Assembly: GCA_001304015.1 (NCBI GenBank)
Contig: LJUY01000061.1
Location: 1-16,047, forward strand
Direction of reading: 5' to 3'
From: a candidate division Zixibacteria bacterium SM23_81
GTDB taxonomy: Bacteria > SM23-81
Length of the DNA: 16,047 nt
The notes below the pieces were generated by a model that saw only the letters and a list, made by a program, of their open reading frames with translations, ran no database searches and was not told the origin of the DNA. Every line of letters begins with the position of its first letter. The stretch's first letter is position 1. Of the stretch, positions 2 through 14,350 are shown in pieces. The position numbers and the translations under genes are program-made.

Positions 2-3000
2 GCCGGGCCGATTGATTACCTGCCGTTTCTGACCAACACGTTCCATGCTCCCTGGGTAGAGGTGGTTTCCCCCAACGGCGGTGAGGTCTTTGCCGACACG
101 TCCATCATCACCTGGGTAGCACCGGATGTGGAGGATGACCCGGTGACATTGGACATCCTGTACTCATCCAATGGAGGTTCCTCATGGACGACGGAGGCCG
201 CGGATGAGCCCAACGACAGCACCTATGAGTGGGACACGAATTCCTTGAGCGATGGCACCCAATATCTTATTAAACTACAGGCTGACGATGGGACCTATAC
301 CAGCTGGGACATCTCCGATGCCGTCTTCACCATCTATAATCCAGATCCTCCCCAGGTGATCGTCACCTATCCCAACGGTGGCGAGCTCGATTCCAATCAA
401 GCGAACGATGGAACGCACGGCTGGAACGTCTCACAGCTGGATGATGGAATCGACTATCTTGTTCGCCTTACTGTATCCGATACCTCGAATCTATCGGGCA
501 TGGACACTTCCGATGCTGTCTTTGAGATCAACAACCCCGATCCCCCTACGGTGACAGTATTAAGCCCTAACGGAGGTGAACACTGGAGCGGAACTCACTC
601 CATCGTGTGGACGGCTAGCGATCCTGATTCGTTAGAAGGCCTGACTTTCGATCTATTCGTGGGCACCACCACCGCCTCCGACACGATCTGGACCGTATTG
701 GACAGTACCTCATCGGATACCAGCTACTCCTGGAACACCGGCGGTTACTCCGACTGGGGCACCTGCTATGTCAAAGTAGTGGTCACCGACCCGGATGGGC
801 TCTCCGACGGGGATCTGTCCAACTCCAGCTTCACTGTGGACAACACCCCACCCCCCATGCCCTCATACCTGTACCTGGATGCCGAATGGGATCCGATCAA
901 CGGTCTGGGCACCGCACACCTCACCTGGGAGGATGTGGTCGACACTTTGAGCCCGCCGGAGTTCTTCCAGGTCTTCTACGGCACCTCCAATGATAACATC
1001 GACTATGACACCCCCATCTACTCCGGCAGCTCCAATTTCCTGATGGTCGACTCCCTCAGCCCTGGTCCTCATTACTTCGGCCTGAAGGCCAGGGACTCTG
1101 CCGACCAGCCCAACGAGGTTACCTATCAGAAGAACAAGGGGACCCACGGCGAAGGTGTCTATTTCACCTCCGCTGACTTCAACCTCTCCAGCGTGGTGTC
1201 CAGCTCCAACGGCGTGGTCACCGGCTCCAGCCCCAACTTCCAGCTGGACGGCTCGGTGGTGATCACCTACAGTGATTTCATGATCATCTCCTACGAAAAT
1301 CTCACCGCCGGCGACAGTGACGGCCACCATGCCCTGATGGTCTATGGCCGCTTGGTGGCCCACAAAAGCACATTTTCTGCCAGCAGCGCTGGGGACTGGA
1401 GAGGCGTCGTTTTCGCCGACTCTAGCATGGATTACGACACCACCACCACTGTGGGCTGCCAGATTGATAGCTGCACCATTCGCCATGCCGTCAACGGCAT
1501 CGACTGCAACTGGTCATCGCCCCTGATCGACGGCAACGAGATCTCCCACTGCTCATTCGCAGGCATCAACTGCTTCTGGTCCGAGGCCATCATCCAGAAT
1601 AATGATGCCGCCACCGGCGGCATCCACCACAACGCCTATGGCATCTGGGAGGACGGGGAGGGACCAACTGGCTGGGGCATCCTGGTAAAGGACAATGAGG
1701 TGCGCGACAACACCTTTGCCGGCATGCATTTCGGCAATAGCGCCCGCCCCACCATCAAAAGCAACCTGATCCATGACAACGGTACCGGGGCCGAGTTCCA
1801 GACCTGGGCGTTCCCGGTCCAGTTTGCCCGCAACGATATCTACAATAACTCTGTCTACGGCGTCGAGAACGATACAACCTCCTGGCAGATCACCGCTGAG
1901 AACAACTGGTGGGGCGCGGCCAGCGGACCCTCCGGGCAGGGCACTGGCTTCGGCGATGCCGTAAGCAAGAATGTGGACTTCCAGCCGTTCCTGACATTCC
2001 CCACCGGCACCGACGTGGTCAACTGGTGCCAGCTTGTCTCCCCGGACAGCATCAACATGGACGTGGGCGATACCACCGGGACCATCCTGGGACAGGTTTA
2101 TGAGCCTGGCATAACACCCGGCGGTGGTCAGGGTGCTGGCATTACAGCCCAAGTGGGCTATGGCTCGAACAACACGGAACCATCCGGGGCTGGCTGGAGT
2201 TGGTCAACGGCCTCCTACGTGAGGGATGTGGGCAGCAACGACGAGTATGGGGGCAACCTAACGGTTTCGCGGACCGGGACATATGACTTTGCCTTGCGAT
2301 TCTCCAAAGACAGCGGGACCACCTGGGTATACGCAGATCTGGATGCCAACAACCAGGGAGGGGATGGCGGAAATGGCTACACCACGGATCAGGCCGGCCA
2401 TCTGCAAGTGGGTTTCGTAATCACACCTGTTCTGGTCATCGACGATGATTTGGGACACTGGGAAATTCCTTACCAGGATGCCCTGACAAACAATGGGATC
2501 GGCTATAACACGTGGGAGGTTTCCACCCAAGGCTCGCCGCCGACCAGTGTCCTCAACAAATACCAGGCGGTGGTCTGGGAGACGGGGGAGGACGCGACGA
2601 ACACCCTTACAGCAGAGGACGAAGACAATCTGATGGCATATCTGAACAATGGCGGCAGTCTTTTCCTCTCCAGCAAAGGCTATCTGACTGAAATCCTGGT
2701 GGCCAACTACTTCACAGCCAACTATCTCCACATTGACATGTGGATCAACGATGTCACCGGCATCGAGAGGGAGCGGGGCGAGCCGGGAGACATCATCGCC
2801 GATGGCCTGAACCTAGAGCTGGATTGGCCCCTATGTGTGGGAACCGATGACATGATCCCTGGAAACGACGCCGTGGGTATATTTCACAACGATTATTTCA
2901 AGTCAGGGAAACAGCTGAATTTCGGTGGCCTCCGCTATCCCATCGCCACTACTAAGAGCGGTTACCGGTTAGTTTTTCTCAGCTTCCCCTTTGAGGCCAT

Positions 3001-4264
3001 CAGCGATCTCCCTGATCCCGACAACCAAGATACTGTTATGGGACAGGTGATGTCCTGGCTGATGACTGGCCTGCTTCCGCCTGAGGCCCTCATGGCCGGC
3101 GATCAGTGTCCCAGCTATGTCCCCCTGACCTGGTCGCCCCCAGGCTCTATGGTGGACACTCTTCAGATTCACGATGGATCCATGGAGGGCCGCGTTCGGG
3201 CACCTAGTCCAGGTAACGTCCTGGCCGTGCGGTTGACACCAGAGTCGTATCCCTGCATCCTGCGAACGCTGATGTTTCACGTCTGGAACATTAAACCCAT
3301 GACGGCGGTAGACATGTATGTGTTCGCCGACACCTCATCCGACACTACATCTACACCCGGCCCACCCATCTCCGGTCCCCATGAAGTCATCACTCAAGGA
3401 CATGGCGATGGTTGGGTGTTCACCGACATCTGGGACGACCAGGTGACCGTGGACAGTAGAGATGTCTATGTGGGTGTGGTCTATCGGGACAGCATCGACA
3501 CCGGCGTGAGCTGCGACCGAACCGCACCCTTCCACGATCGTGGCTGGTGGGGACAAAGTGTGAATGGCCCCTGGGAACTTCTCAGCGACTTCGGCTGGCC
3601 TTTCAACGTCTCAAATCCCAGCATCACGGCCGTGGTCACTTACCAGGATGGGGCCAGCAAGCTTTTGAGCGGCGAACGGGAACCGGGTCTTACCCAGTTC
3701 GAAGCAGGTGGGGCCGAAGAAGACAGCAAGGCCTTCCTGGGGTATAACATCTATCGCGGCGAGACGAGCGGTGGTCCTTATGACTTCTTGGAATTCGTAT
3801 CCAAAGAGCAGACCACATACCAAGATGACTCCGTGATCGGCGGCGAGCAGTACTGGTATGTGGTCAGCGCCACCTACCATCAAGAGGAAACCGACTATTC
3901 CAACGAGGTTCAGGGTTTTCCACGCTCTATCCTGCCCCCCATGATAGTCGACGATCTGGAGATCTCCTTGGATATGAACAACCTCCACCTGAACTGGTCG
4001 CCAGTAGGCCTGGATACGGCGGGCTATCCCAAGCAGACAGAATACTATATCATATACCGAACCACCTATCCCTATGCCAGCATCGGAGACCCAGACTCCC
4101 TGGGAAATACCACTGAGACCTTTTACTTAGATCAAGGTGCAGCAGGAGACACCCTTATGCAGTATTTTTATGTGGTCAAAGCGATGGACTGCTACGGCAC
4201 CAAGTCCGCAGAATCCAACAGAGTCGGGGAGTTCGACCGAGGGGTAACCTCTGGGAACAAATGA
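2..4264 (+). CDS. Giant secreted beta-helix / Ig-like / Fn3 multidomain protein, 3' part (5' end outside window)
   Basis: The frame is open from the first bases of the window, so the GTG at 62 is not the real start; about 1420 residues are visible. Domain order, by nucleotide: a short tail ending DYLPFLT (2-40), which resembles the end of a parallel beta-helix; three Ig-like repeats with a PNGGE signature (62-846); an Fn3-like stretch (850-1120); a right-handed beta-helix of PbH1-type repeats (about 1160-2010) ending in NWWG...GDAVSKNVDFQPFLT; a beta-sandwich module with WSWSTASYVRDVGSNDEY (about 2130-2420); a glutamine-amidotransferase-like fold beginning VLVIDDD (about 2429-3090); an unassigned beta-rich segment (3090-3650); and two Fn3-like domains (3710-4255). 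Such proteins are exported and surface-associated; substrate unknown. No C-terminal sorting or FlgD-like domain is evident after the last Fn3. It is followed directly by a terminator, so it ends its transcription unit. The architecture is solid; the function is not. Confidence 0.85.
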   Translation, partial: AGPIDYLPFLTNTFHAPWVEVVSPNGGEVFADTSIITWVAPDVEDDPVTLDILYSSNGGSSWTTEAADEPNDSTYEWDTNSLSDGTQYLIKLQADDGTYTSWDISDAVFTIYNPDPPQVIVTYPNGGELDSNQANDGTHGWNVSQLDDGIDYLVRLTVSDTSNLSGMDTSDAVFEINNPDPPTVTVLSPNGGEHWSGTHSIVWTASDPDSLEGLTFDLFVGTTTASDTIWTVLDSTSSDTSYSWNTGGYSDWGTCYVKVVVTDPDGLSDGDLSNSSFTVDNTPPPMPSYLYLDAEWDPINGLGTAHLTWEDVVDTLSPPEFFQVFYGTSNDNIDYDTPIYSGSSNFLMVDSLSPGPHYFGLKARDSADQPNEVTYQKNKGTHGEGVYFTSADFNLSSVVSSSNGVVTGSSPNFQLDGSVVITYSDFMIISYENLTAGDSDGHHALMVYGRLVAHKSTFSASSAGDWRGVVFADSSMDYDTTTTVGCQIDSCTIRHAVNGIDCNWSSPLIDGNEISHCSFAGINCFWSEAIIQNNDAATGGIHHNAYGIWEDGEGPTGWGILVKDNEVRDNTFAGMHFGNSARPTIKSNLIHDNGTGAEFQTWAFPVQFARNDIYNNSVYGVENDTTSWQITAENNWWGAASGPSGQGTGFGDAVSKNVDFQPFLTFPTGTDVVNWCQLVSPDSINMDVGDTTGTILGQVYEPGITPGGGQGAGITAQVGYGSNNTEPSGAGWSWSTASYVRDVGSNDEYGGNLTVSRTGTYDFALRFSKDSGTTWVYADLDANNQGGDGGNGYTTDQAGHLQVGFVITPVLVIDDDLGHWEIPYQDALTNNGIGYNTWEVSTQGSPPTSVLNKYQAVVWETGEDATNTLTAEDEDNLMAYLNNGGSLFLSSKGYLTEILVANYFTANYLHIDMWINDVTGIERERGEPGDIIADGLNLELDWPLCVGTDDMIPGNDAVGIFHNDYFKSGKQLNFGGLRYPIATTKSGYRLVFLSFPFEAISDLPDPDNQDTVMGQVMSWLMTGLLPPEALMAGDQCPSYVPLTWSPPGSMVDTLQIHDGSMEGRVRAPSPGNVLAVRLTPESYPCILRTLMFHVWNIKPMTAVDMYVFADTSSDTTSTPGPPISGPHEVITQGHGDGWVFTDIWDDQVTVDSRDVYVGVVYRDSIDTGVSCDRTAPFHDRGWWGQSVNGPWELLSDFGWPFNVSNPSITAVVTYQDGASKLLSGEREPGLTQFEAGGAEEDSKAFLGYNIYRGETSGGPYDFLEFVSKEQTTYQDDSVIGGEQYWYVVSATYHQEETDYSNEVQGFPRSILPPMIVDDLEISLDMNNLHLNWSPVGLDTAGYPKQTEYYIIYRTTYPYASIGDPDSLGNTTETFYLDQGAAGDTLMQYFYVVKAMDCYGTKSAESNRVGEFDRGVTSGNK
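62..846 (+). repeat. Three tandem PNGGE Ig-like repeats, the middle one shortened
   Basis: The GGE codons fall at 77-85, 377-385 and 572-580. The first period is 300 bases (100 codons), the second only 195 (65 codons). Each unit ends in a similar linker: NPDPP for repeats 1 and 2, and DNTPPP for repeat 3. In repeat 1, 49 residues lie between GGE and the conserved Trp of YEW; in repeat 2 only 13 do. The middle beta strands of repeat 2 are therefore missing without loss of frame. Confidence 0.75.
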
Positions 4265-4298
4265 GCACGAACTGACAGAGCAGTACACCGAGAGGAAG

Positions 4299-4331
4299 AA
4301 GCCCTTCCGAACTTTTCGGGAGGGCTTTTTT
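4299..4331 (+). terminator. Intrinsic terminator of the giant protein gene
   Basis: A 12-bp stem (4299-4310 with 4316-4327, one G-U pair) closes a 5-nt loop and runs into six T residues (4326-4331). It starts 35 nt after the stop codon. Confidence 0.9.
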
Positions 4332-4519
4332 AAGCAATGCCCTGACGATTAAATCATGGTTCAGCGGTCGTGAAAAGAAAACTTCACAGCTGTCGCTTCA
4401 GGAATTGCGATCAACGAACCCCGTTCACAGACAGCGATTCACTAACGTGAACTATAGATCACCTGCATACTTAACATTTGTTTTCGGCCTAATTTTTGCT
4501 CATTTATTTTTCTGCTAAA

Positions 4520-4547
4520 TTGACCGAGCAAACAGATGCTGAATGAT
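4520..4547 (+). promoter_or_regulatory. Weak sigma70-type promoter candidate for the diguanylate cyclase
   Basis: TTGACC (4520-4525), a 16-nt spacer and AATGAT (4542-4547). The match is moderate. If real, transcription would start near 4555, inside the longest possible ORF, which argues for the translation start at 4705. Confidence 0.25.
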
Positions 4548-4704
4548 AAGACAACCGGCCCTTGCGTCGTCTCAAAACACCAGAATATTAACACCAAAAT
4601 CGCCGACCTGGGCTTCAGATACACTCTTCATTCGCTCACATCCCTCGCATTTTGCCAAGTCCGAAAACGTTGTGCAGAATCGCTGCTCATTCTATGCGGG
4701 ATAC

Positions 4705-6804
4705 ATGATGAAAGACAAAAACAAGACAAAAAATCAACTCATGGCGGAACTGGCCGAACTGCGCCAACGCACTGCAGAGTTAGAAACATCTGCAAGCCCT
4801 AGCCAGCGGATCAAGCGGGTGATGTGGGAGAGCGAGAAGCGCCTTCGAAGTCTCTTCGAAATGATGACTGAAGGCGTGGTCATGATTGCCCCCGATGGTC
4901 AGATCGTCCAGGCCAATCATGCGGCAGAGCGGATATTGGGGCTCAAGCTTTCTAAGATAGAAGATCGCAAATTGATTGCCTTAGATTGGAAAATCCTCCG
5001 CCCCGATGGAACGCCGATGCCGCCCGAGGAGACGCCTGGTCACCGTGCGATGAAAAAAAGGCGCCGCGTGGAGAATATCGTGATGGGCATCGAGCGCCCA
5101 GATGGCTCTATCTCCTGGGTCAACGCCAGTGCTGTCCCGCTCATAGACAAAGCGGGCAAGCTTGAGGGTATCGTCGGCACCTTCGCAGACATCACCGAGC
5201 ACAAGCAGGCCGAGAAAACGCTGCAAAGGAAAACCGACCAGCAGGAACAGCTCCTTCAGACCGCCCGCCACCTGACCGCATGCCTTGATGTCACAAAGGT
5301 CTTAAGACAGATCGGCATTCGGGCCAAGAAGATTCTTAAAGCCCACGGTTGCGTGATTTACCTCCTGGAAACGGACGGAAAAACATTGGCGCCTGTCGTG
5401 GCTATCGATCCTACCTATGAGGAGGAGATCCTATCGACTCCCCTCAACGTCGAGTCCAGCTTTACCGGCCAGGCGATAAAAACCCGGCGAGGTTTGATCT
5501 TTAACGATCCCACCGCTCATTCCCTGGGACAACAGATTCCGGGAACGCCCGTAGAGAAGAACGAGCGCATCATCGTCGCGCCCTTTGTCGCCGACGATAA
5601 AGTTCTCGGAGCGATGTGCCTTAACCGTATGGGGACGCTCTTTTCCGAAGAGGACCTGGCTCTGGCTGAGACCTTCGCCACATACGCGGCCACTGCCCTG
5701 AAAAACGCCCAGACGCACCACGATCTCCAGCATGAGGTGGAGGAACGCAAGAGAGCTGAGCTGGCGCTGCGTGAATCGAGAAGAAAAATAGAGGGTCTCC
5801 ATGACACGACTTGCAGTTTAGAAGCTTGCCAGAGTGAGGATGAGGTCTACCAAATCACCGCCAAGGCGGCGGAGCAGATCCTCACCTTTTCTCTGTGCAC
5901 CCTGGATATTGTGGAGGGAAACAGGCTGGTGGTGAAGGCGTTGTCGTCTGGGCTGCCACCTGAAACAAGTGTAGAAAGAGACCTTGATGAGGCAGGCCTG
6001 GCCGGGATGACCTATCGCACTGGCGAAACCTTTATCTTTGGCGACTTGGATGAAGTTCCAGGGGCGAAGCCGACAGGAGAGGACTTCAAATCCGGGATTA
6101 GCGCACCGATAGGTGATATCGGCGTGTTTCAGGTGGTCTCCACTGATCCGAATGCTTTTTCCAACGAGGACAAAGAGCTGCTCGAGCTCCTGCTTGGTCA
6201 TACTGCAGAAGCCGTGCGAAGGATTCGTTTGCGGAACGAGCTTCGCGAACAGGCCACCCGTGACCCACTGACTGGGGCATACAACCGCCGCCACTTCAGG
6301 GAGATGATCGAGCGCGAGAGAGCGCGCTCTAAGCGGTATAGACATCCCATAGGATTCTTAATGATCGACATCGACGGGTTCAAGCAGATCAATGACACAA
6401 ATGGGCATCAGACGGGTGATCGGGTTCTTCAAGAAGTGGCAGAATTCTTGCAAAGCCAAGTGCGAGCGGTGGAGATGGTGGTGCGCTACGGTGGGGATGA
6501 GTTTCTCATTGTCATGCCGGAGAGGGGCAGGGAAATCGCAGTGGTGAAGCAACGGATTAAGAAGGCGGTGGCACGCTGGAATGAGGCCAATGAGATATTT
6601 GATTTTCCGGTTACGCTGTCCATCGGCGGTTCTTATTGGAGTCCCCGCGGTTCCGAATCCCTAGAGGAAGTCCTAGCCAAAGCCGACGGACGGATGTATG
6701 AAGAGAAGAAAGGCAGCAAGCGCGCCGTCGAGAAAAAGGATCTCAGGACTGACAAAAAGGACCGAAAGTTAAAGGAAAATAGGAAGACAAAGGTACCCAT
6801 TTAG
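4705..6804 (+). CDS. PAS-GAF-GAF-GGDEF diguanylate cyclase
   Basis: Predicted to make cyclic di-GMP from two GTP in the cytoplasm in response to ligands sensed by PAS and GAF domains. Numbering from ATG 4705 (699 aa): N-terminal coiled coil with the typical K-rich, LMAELAELRQR start (1-42); PAS plus PAC (45-170, ending GTFADITEHKQAE); GAF1 (about 195-335); GAF2 (about 365-510); GGDEF domain (about 515-685) with DPLTG at 520, the metal-binding segment DIDGFKQIND at 555-564 and an intact GGDEF signature at 596-600; then a Lys/Arg-rich tail. No membrane segment and no EAL domain. The inhibitory I-site reads RAVE (587-590) instead of RxxD. The frame is open back to ATG 4543 (753 aa), but those 54 residues are low-similarity and lack an SD; ATG 4705 or 4708 fits family starts better. 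It appears monocistronic. Confidence 0.9.
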   Translation: MMKDKNKTKNQLMAELAELRQRTAELETSASPSQRIKRVMWESEKRLRSLFEMMTEGVVMIAPDGQIVQANHAAERILGLKLSKIEDRKLIALDWKILRPDGTPMPPEETPGHRAMKKRRRVENIVMGIERPDGSISWVNASAVPLIDKAGKLEGIVGTFADITEHKQAEKTLQRKTDQQEQLLQTARHLTACLDVTKVLRQIGIRAKKILKAHGCVIYLLETDGKTLAPVVAIDPTYEEEILSTPLNVESSFTGQAIKTRRGLIFNDPTAHSLGQQIPGTPVEKNERIIVAPFVADDKVLGAMCLNRMGTLFSEEDLALAETFATYAATALKNAQTHHDLQHEVEERKRAELALRESRRKIEGLHDTTCSLEACQSEDEVYQITAKAAEQILTFSLCTLDIVEGNRLVVKALSSGLPPETSVERDLDEAGLAGMTYRTGETFIFGDLDEVPGAKPTGEDFKSGISAPIGDIGVFQVVSTDPNAFSNEDKELLELLLGHTAEAVRRIRLRNELREQATRDPLTGAYNRRHFREMIERERARSKRYRHPIGFLMIDIDGFKQINDTNGHQTGDRVLQEVAEFLQSQVRAVEMVVRYGGDEFLIVMPERGREIAVVKQRIKKAVARWNEANEIFDFPVTLSIGGSYWSPRGSESLEEVLAKADGRMYEEKKGSKRAVEKKDLRTDKKDRKLKENRKTKVPI

Positions 6805-11927: not shown

Positions 11928-11956
11928 TTGACACCAAAAGGTTGAGTTGATATCAT
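11928..11956 (+). promoter_or_regulatory. Near-consensus sigma70-type promoter of the reductase cluster
   Basis: Perfect TTGACA (11928-11933), 17-nt spacer, TATCAT (11951-11956, 5 of 6). The start is expected near 11963, giving a leader of about 185 nt before ATG 12148. Confidence 0.7.
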
Positions 11957-12006
11957 AGGGTAGGCAGATTGCTGCAAACCCGTCTCTCTCAGCATGGGAT
12001 CCGGAA

Positions 12007-12087
12007 GCGCTGGGCGATGGCGGCATCGCTGAGGCCTACGAGCTTTTCAAGATGAACCTGGCCCTTTATCCGTTTTCAGAATTGTGA
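12007..12087 (+). pseudogene. Remnant of a TPR-repeat gene
   Basis: This frame, open since 11959, reads ALGDGGIAEAYELFKMNL then ALYPFSEL and TGA. It resembles a TPR helix pair of the type A..LY.LN...YPDS.N found at the C terminus of hydrolase-TPR proteins. There is no start codon or SD. The frame is the same as that of the downstream reductase but a stop separates them. It lies in the reductase 5' leader. Short, so recognition is tentative. Confidence 0.4.
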
Positions 12088-12147: not shown

Positions 12148-13399
12148 ATGTCCCAAAAAGGACTTGTCGATCGAAGAAATTTCATGAAAATGGCAGCTAC
12201 AGGAATGGCCGGGATCTGCTTAGCCCCCTCTGTCGGTGCAGAACAAACCGAACTACCGGCCCATCTAAAACCAGCCTCCAGAAAGCTCATCTACCGAACT
12301 CTCGGGAAAACTGGAATCACATTGCCCGTTATTAGCATGGGCGTGATGAACTCGGATAATCCAAATCTCGTCCGTGCGGCCTTGGATGCTGGAATTATGC
12401 ATTTAGACACGGCATGGTGGTACCAAAGCGGCAGAAACGAGGAGATGATTGGGGATATCGTTAAGGATCGCCCCCGGGATTCTTACGTTATCGCAACCAA
12501 AGTCCCCGGAAGTGTCCCCTTGCCCTATGCTAGGGGCGTCTTTCCTGACGACGAGGTCAGCAGAGCAACACTAGTGGACTCCTTTCTGAAAAGAGTAGAC
12601 ACCAGTCTCAAACGGTTACGGCTGGAATATGTAGACATCCTCTACCTGCATAATGTCTGGACACGCGAAGCCGTCCTGTTTGAGTCTTTGATGGAAGCCC
12701 TTGCAAAGTTGAAGAAAGAGGGAAAAGCCAAGTTCTTGGGTATTTCCACTCACCGCAACGAACCCGCGGTTATAGAGGCCGCCATTGATAGTAAACTCTA
12801 TGAGGTGGTCCTCACGGCCTACAATTTCAAACAAGATCATCGTCTTGACGTACAATCGGCCATTGCGAAAGCCGCCCAAGCTGGCCTAGGGGTCATTGCG
12901 ATGAAGACTCTGGCCGGGGGGGTACCTTGACGAAGAAAGGACAAAACCCGTCAACGCAAAGGCGGCCCTGAAATGGGTTCTCCAGGACGAAAATGTCCAC
13001 ACCGTCATCGCCGGTTGCACCGCTTTTGACCAGATGGAGCTAGATCTTTCGGTCATGGAGGATCTCACCCTGGAGGATTCTGAAAAACGGGATTTGCAGT
13101 TGGAGTCTTCCATAGAGGAATCTTCAAGAGGAGGTATCTACTGTCAAGCCTGCGAGAAGTGCATGAACCAATGCCAGGAACGCCTCCCGATACCCGATAT
13201 CATGCGAGCCTATATGTATGCTCAAGGCTATCGAAACCTCTGCGAAGCCCAGAATCTTTTGCTCTCCTTGAATCTGTCCTCCGATATTTGTAAGCATTGC
13301 GAACGATGCGCTGTGACCTGCGTTCGGGGATTCGACGTCTCCAGGAGGATTCGAGATGTCATTTGCCTCCAAGAAGTTCCAGCAAACTTTTTGGTGTAA
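12148..13399 (+). pseudogene. Tat-exported dicluster 4Fe-4S aldo/keto reductase, frameshifted at a G7 run
   Basis: ATG 12148 has GAGGA 7 nt upstream. A Tat signal (DRRNFMK, then a hydrophobic run to about residue 30) is followed by an aldo/keto reductase barrel with the full tetrad: Asp87 and Tyr92 in DTAWWY, Lys118 in ATKV, His168 in YLHN. The frame then ends early at TGA 12928-12930, just after a run of seven G (12916-12922). Removing one G restores AGGYLDEERTKP and the rest of the barrel through 13399, for 416 residues. The restored C terminus carries two CxxCxxCxxxC clusters (Cys332/335/338/342 and 381/384/387/391), the ferredoxin-like tail of this oxidoreductase branch. As written the products are a 260-aa barrel lacking the Fe-S tail and an untranslated or separate tail. 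Substrate unknown. First gene of the cluster; the next start is 21 nt downstream. Confidence 0.88.
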
Positions 13400-13405
13400 C
13401 CTTTT

Positions 13406-13412
13406 TAAGGAG
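13406..13412 (+). promoter_or_regulatory. Ribosome binding site deciding the ATG 13421 start
   Basis: TAAGGAG lies 8 nt before ATG 13421. The in-frame GTG at 13412 overlaps this site, so it is an unlikely start. Confidence 0.65.
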
Positions 13413-13420
13413 TGGCCCTG

Positions 13421-14350
13421 ATGCGATTTCGGGGCTTCAAAAGAATCTTTTGCCCCCTGATGGCATCTCTTTTTACCGTCGGTATCACCATAAAATTGGG
13501 ACCTGTCTTCTGGATGGCTCCGGCCGGGGAAACAAATACGCTCTTTCCAGAAATAGAGGGATGGAAAAGGTCTGGAAACATTCAGGTCTTCACCTCAGAG
13601 AGCCTCTTTGACTACATCGACGGTGCCGCTGAACTCTATCTGAGCTACGATTTTCACCAACTGCAGGTGGCCGAATATCATGACCAGGAGGAAACCATAA
13701 TTACCGTTGAAGTCTATGGTCACAAAACACCCCTTCACGCGTTTGGAATTTACAGCCAAGAACGGCCAAGAGAGGCAAACTTCCTGGATATCGGCGCCCA
13801 GGGCTATGTTGAGGAAACGATGCTGAATTTTGTGATCGGGCCCCATTAAGTGAAGATAAACACCTATCTGGGTGCGTCGAAAACTCAGGAAGTTCTGCAG
13901 CACTTCGGAAAAAGGGTTGCTGAACAACTCGGCGGAAGAGCATGGTTGCCAGAAATATTATCCTGTTTCCCAGAGCAGCGAAAATTTCCAAACTCTGAAA
14001 GATTTGTGGCCAGAGATTTCCTGGGCCACAGATTTCTCCATCACGGCTTCACTGCCGATTATGGCGATTCCAATATGACCTTTACGCTTTTTATCATCGA
14101 AGGGACCGATCCCGAAAATTGCGGTGAGATGCTCCAGGAGTATTTCCAACTCACCGGATATTCCCAAAAGGAGGCCAAAGAAGGTCACTATATTCTGAGG
14201 GATCCTTATCACGGAGAGGTCGCCCTTATTTGGGCTCAAAAATATCTTTGGGGGGCTATCAATCTCGTTGACATCAGTCTTCGATCAGAATATTTACAGC
14301 TTACACAGGACCTGTTACAAAGACACAAGGGACTCAAAAAGATCAAATAA
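13421..14350 (+). pseudogene. DUF6599-like exported protein interrupted by an in-frame TAA
   Basis: From ATG 13421 the frame starts with a basic, hydrophobic N terminus (probable signal peptide, possible cleavage after APA near residue 34) and the family-like segment WKRSGNIQVFTSESLFDYID, then GAAELYLSYDF. TAA at 13847-13849 (codon 143) stops it after NFVIGPH. The same frame continues without another stop to 14350 with VKINTYLG, then LGHRFLHHGFTADYG and an ordinary C terminus, 309 codons in all. Relatives have an aromatic residue, usually Tyr, where the TAA stands, as I recall the family, so a single TAC/TAT to TAA change explains it. GTG directly follows the stop (TAAGTG), so reinitiation could yield a 166-aa C-terminal product. 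Family function is unknown. It sits 21 nt after the reductase and 15 nt before the glycosidase gene. Confidence 0.8.

Follow-up and report, generated by a model that had tools for sequence, protein, structure and literature searches.

For frameshifts that are confirmed by homology and occur as singletons, the GeneTack survey of 1106 genomes expected sequencing errors to be the main cause (PMC3711429). In Campylobacter, poly-G contingency genes contain G runs, mainly G9–G10, whose length sets the reading frame (PMC8355987). For a mycobacterial fumarate reductase, slippage has been proposed to rescue a frame change at a poly-G run that is much longer than the one considered here (PMC7835394).

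The locus described here, in which the gene for an exported aldo/keto reductase (AKR) is broken at a run of seven G residues, has several features of the GeneTack singleton class termed ‘hypothetical pseudogene / error’ (PMC3711429): it occurs in one genome only, its domain is split over two frames, intact homologues exist elsewhere and a conserved recoding signal is absent. It differs from this class in that the adjacent, conserved partner gene is also broken, by a nonsense change. The likeness to the Campylobacter genes lies in the in-ORF position of a G run whose length sets the frame, but the present run is shorter (7 versus mainly 9–10 residues) and not conserved, and the sampled genome lacks a set of tract-bearing broken genes.

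A G7 run separates the two parts of a Tat-signal AKR gene

The window, i.e. the whole stretch of DNA that we analysed, is a contig of 16,047 bp (C93) from a 3.07-Mb draft assembly (99 contigs; 92.6% complete). The AKR gene and its break comprise the following features.

12148–12930, plus strand: Tat-signal AKR gene, 5′ part (RR-F-M-K signal; D87, Y92, K118 and H168; PF00248, E = 5.6e-31)
12916–12922, plus strand: G7 run, the frame-break site (sequence; hexamer coding scores)
12905–13399, plus strand: open +1 frame, remaining barrel and tail with two CxxCxxCxxxC motifs (frame, Pfam, alignment)

The frame that starts with the ATG at 12148 has a Tat motif reading RRNFMKMA and encodes 260 amino acids before it is stopped by the TGA at 12928–12930, and the +1 frame carries the protein on, without stops, as YLDEERTKP.... 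The truncated product matched the Pfam family Aldo_ket_red with a score of 108.1 bits (cut-off, 24), which rose to 127.2 bits, with the match reaching past the lesion, when a read-through across the tract was made for the purpose of the search. D87, Y92, K118 and H168 occupy invariant columns in our alignment (A1), and we take them, from general knowledge of AKRs, to be the catalytic tetrad of Asp, Tyr, Lys and His. All eight cysteines of the two tail motifs (C332/335/338/342 and C381/384/387/391 in the read-through numbering) are invariant in the same alignment. Fer4_9 scored below its cut-off of 27 bits both on the tail alone (20.8 bits; E = 4e-4) and on the read-through (17.9 bits). Residue 288, in the putative cofactor loop, is Ala in the window versus an invariant Pro in the family.

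Coding potential was assessed with a hexamer model trained on ~560 kb of the same genome, with the window left out. The 150 nt before the run scored 25.1 (frame 0) and the 150 nt after it 29.0 (frame +1). Since strong flank scores fall in different frames, the frame truly switches at the G7 tract, and the tracts scored elsewhere in the genome (see below) show that chance does not account for so strong a switch. The frames, the Pfam matches and the hexamer scores thus agree with the initial annotation, which had proposed that one extra base divides the gene for a Tat-signal AKR carrying two 4Fe-4S motifs. Its further statement that both halves are well preserved also held, as the +1 frame is free of stops and the tetrad positions and the eight cysteines are kept. 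This preservation of both halves indicates that the AKR lesion is either recent or an error, and the stop-free tail frame with its full set of cysteines makes the decay of the gene slight.

The region upstream of the AKR gene contains a good match to a sigma-70-like promoter at 11928–11956 (TTGACA, a 17-nt spacing and TATCAT, with TG ahead of the second hexamer), ~190 bp from the broken gene. Around 11980–12085, a stretch interrupted by stops reads AWDPEALGDGGIAEAYELFKMNLALYPFSEL and is similar to the TPR-like tail that some serine hydrolases have. It could be what is left of a gene, but a search of the same genome gave no paralogue, and this reading was set aside.

The intact relatives examined have a single open frame and no G run at the break site

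Intact single-ORF genes for AKRs with a Tat signal and two 4Fe-4S motifs, ~385–480 codons in length, were found at ten other loci in unrelated lineages. The set comprises eleven ORFs (L003, L004, L005, L006, L052, L053, L054, two in L062, L065 and L076), from all of which the lesion is absent. A comparable G run was likewise absent from every intact homologue whose break site could be placed. The closest relative found was that of Candidatus Aminicenantes bacterium JdFR-80, a metagenome-assembled genome (L052; 52% identity by tblastn). Its product shares with that of the window the Tat motif, the AKR barrel and the pair of four-cysteine motifs, all in matching order, and its Fer4_9 match scored 29.6 bits. 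Unlike the window, it has a single open frame and no G run, its codons at the break site being ACC CAA GCG GGT GTT TAC, and DUF6599, the family encoded next to the broken AKR gene (see below), was not found in the stretch examined around it.

Sixty relatives were searched, none of which is shown as belonging to the same genus, and the sole genome of the same family had no match. A search of the window's own genome gave no further copy of the Tat-AKR-Fe-S gene; the other two AKR matches there are weak and represent ordinary AKRs. A relative-rate test of the AKR tail depended on the outgroup, the window branch being faster with L003 and L053 and not with four other outgroups; it was left out of the evidence.

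The adjacent DUF6599 gene is broken by a separate nonsense change

The gene that follows the AKR gene encodes a DUF6599 protein and is interrupted by an in-frame TAA.

13412–13849, plus strand: DUF6599 gene, 5′ half (first ATG at 13421; PF20244 positions 2–99 of 186; ends in TAA)
13847–13849, plus strand: in-frame TAA (Tyr or Phe at that column in six intact relatives)
13850–14350, plus strand: DUF6599 gene, 3′ half (same frame; PF20244 positions 111–184 of 186)

The TAA column is occupied by Tyr or Phe in all six of the intact relatives compared. This break had escaped the initial annotation, which had named uniform G7 together with further downstream decay in relatives as the mark of an ordinary pseudogene. 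Decay beyond the G7 run does exist, in the form of the DUF6599 nonsense change, but the genome that shows it is that of the window, not of a relative; the AKR tail itself has no further stops.

DUF6599 lies directly downstream of the AKR gene in L003, L004, L006, L055 and L076, and in L067 it adjoins, again downstream, an AKR without the Fe-S tail. The two genes adjoin in several unrelated lineages and so form a conserved pair, each member of which is damaged in the window. The two lesions, located within 930 bp, are of different kinds, an indel and a nonsense substitution. Repeats of at least 16 bases were not found around the AKR/DUF6599 module, and the DUF6599 lesion lies outside any repeat.

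Two more DUF6599 genes, each directly downstream of a gene for a DUF362 protein, occur elsewhere in the same genome (positions 1–9000 of contig C36; L158).

1492–2049, 3493–4800, 2062–3441 and 4793–5971 of L158, minus strand: DUF6599 and DUF362 genes (Pfam)

The DUF362 proteins have a twin-arginine-like N-terminus. Exported redox proteins may thus have DUF6599 partners more widely. A search of the literature library found no paper on DUF6599.

Other G tracts of the genome keep their reading frame

The genome contains 281 matches to G7, counted with overlaps on both strands. In sampled stretches of the genome we scored 72 runs of at least seven G or C residues, 57 of which had scores above 5 on both flanks. 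Of these 57 tracts with coding flanks, 43 stay in one frame, the coding strand changes at 12 and the frame switches at 2. Six same-strand frame changes were called in all, only two of which have coding sequence on both flanks: the window and an ordinary gene boundary, between two genes that we take, from the appearance of their sequences, to be trehalose-phosphatase-like and MscS-like. A further switch, called at L050:17274 with a weak upstream score, falls where a hydrogenase-like gene meets a DRTGG gene. The window is therefore the only clear frame break within one gene among the 72 tracts scored. Since the other tracts of 7–9 residues in coding sequence keep their frame, the sample contains no set of tract switches. 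A systematic homopolymer error in the assembly was also considered and is not supported, as 43 other G/C7–9 tracts are coding and in frame.

Internal stops were found in none of the 30 ABC_tran and none of the 24 Response_reg matches of the same genome. The genome is not generally broken, these 54 domain matches bounding the rate of breakage loosely and being no proof of a clean assembly. A search for frame breaks by coding potential alone was abandoned, as it flagged gene boundaries such as rplD/rplW. Under its strict rule, this ab initio scan recovered only 52 of the 600 indels implanted in a simulation; we claim no genome-wide rate of frame breaks, because the scan is too insensitive. A hexamer scan for in-frame nonsense changes proved too noisy and left the DUF6599 stop unflagged.

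Discussion

We consider it fairly likely that an exported redox module, dispensable to the organism, was recently inactivated by single lesions. The ancestor would have had one exported AKR of ~416 amino acids that carried a double 4Fe-4S domain at its C-terminus, with the gene for a secreted DUF6599 partner next in line. The short G run would have gained one base by replication slippage, and the ribosome would then stop two codons later, so that the product lacks the last part of the barrel, the putative cofactor loop and the eight cysteines of the clusters. Because these parts are gone, the truncated AKR product should be inactive, as judged from general knowledge of AKR folds. The DUF6599 partner would have been broken separately, by the nonsense change. 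The balance tilts to a real loss because two lesions lie within 930 bp, they affect a conserved pair and the other long ORFs of the contig are open. Counting against this reading are the slight decay of the AKR tail and the expectation that singleton frameshifts are mostly errors (PMC3711429). Whereas the two lesions, the conserved pairing and the in-frame state of the other G tracts are seen in the sequence, we infer that the organism truly carries the lesions and is losing the module; the AKR gene is probably an ordinary broken gene and part of that module.

The main rival is an assembly or consensus error, in which the gene of the organism is intact and the additional G, possibly together with the TAA, is an artefact of low coverage or of mixture in the contig. 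Apparent pseudogenes in assemblies are in many cases errors (PMC11017572), as singleton frameshifts often are (PMC3711429), and the window is one 16-kb contig of a 99-contig draft in which both genes are otherwise well preserved. An artefact is thus possible, but we regard it as less likely than a real loss, since it needs an indel error and a substitution error close together, one on each member of a conserved pair, in a window whose other long ORFs are open and in a genome whose other G7–9 tracts are in frame and whose 54 examined domain matches have no internal stop. Illumina data were robust for homopolymer indels in one study (PMC3025981), which would bear on the present assembly if it was made on that platform.

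The initial annotation had also raised a phase-variable switch, in which slipped-strand mispairing at the G tract would turn the exported reductase on and off. The tract does lie inside an ORF, and a change of one base in its length would restore a good protein. However, a run of only 7 G falls short of the G9–G10 that mainly make up the Campylobacter switches (PMC8355987), no relative examined has a G tract at the break site, runs of G7–9 are common and harmless in the genome itself, and none of the other sampled G tracts coincides with a clear break in a gene. Hypermutable length and retention in relatives, both features of contingency tracts, are therefore lacking. The independent nonsense lesion of the partner, which lies outside any repeat, also counts against a switch, because the module would stay broken even if the G tract reverted. 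These observations make a phase-variable switch very unlikely. A G run beside a stop in one draft genome does not amount to a switch.

Recoding, by which +1 ribosomal or transcriptional slippage on the G run would give some full-length protein, has in its favour the intact AKR tail frame and the rescue proposed for the mycobacterial fumarate reductase (PMC7835394), but we consider it the least probable reading, as the slip site has no stop codon directly at it, no significant RNA fold follows the tract (z = −1.44) and the site is conserved in no relative examined, whereas programmed frameshifts form conserved clusters (PMC3711429). There is only a slight chance that the G7 run switches the frame slowly, or that slippage rescues it, such that in a population a small fraction of the cells or transcripts would still yield the exported Fe-S enzyme.

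If the lesions are real, as the reading of a recent gene loss holds, the joint break of the AKR and DUF6599 genes suggests that the two form one module. This would help to place the uncharacterised, secreted DUF6599 family with exported redox enzymes. The pairing of AKR with DUF6599 is a lead on the function of DUF6599, and as such a more useful by-product of this analysis than the broken gene itself.
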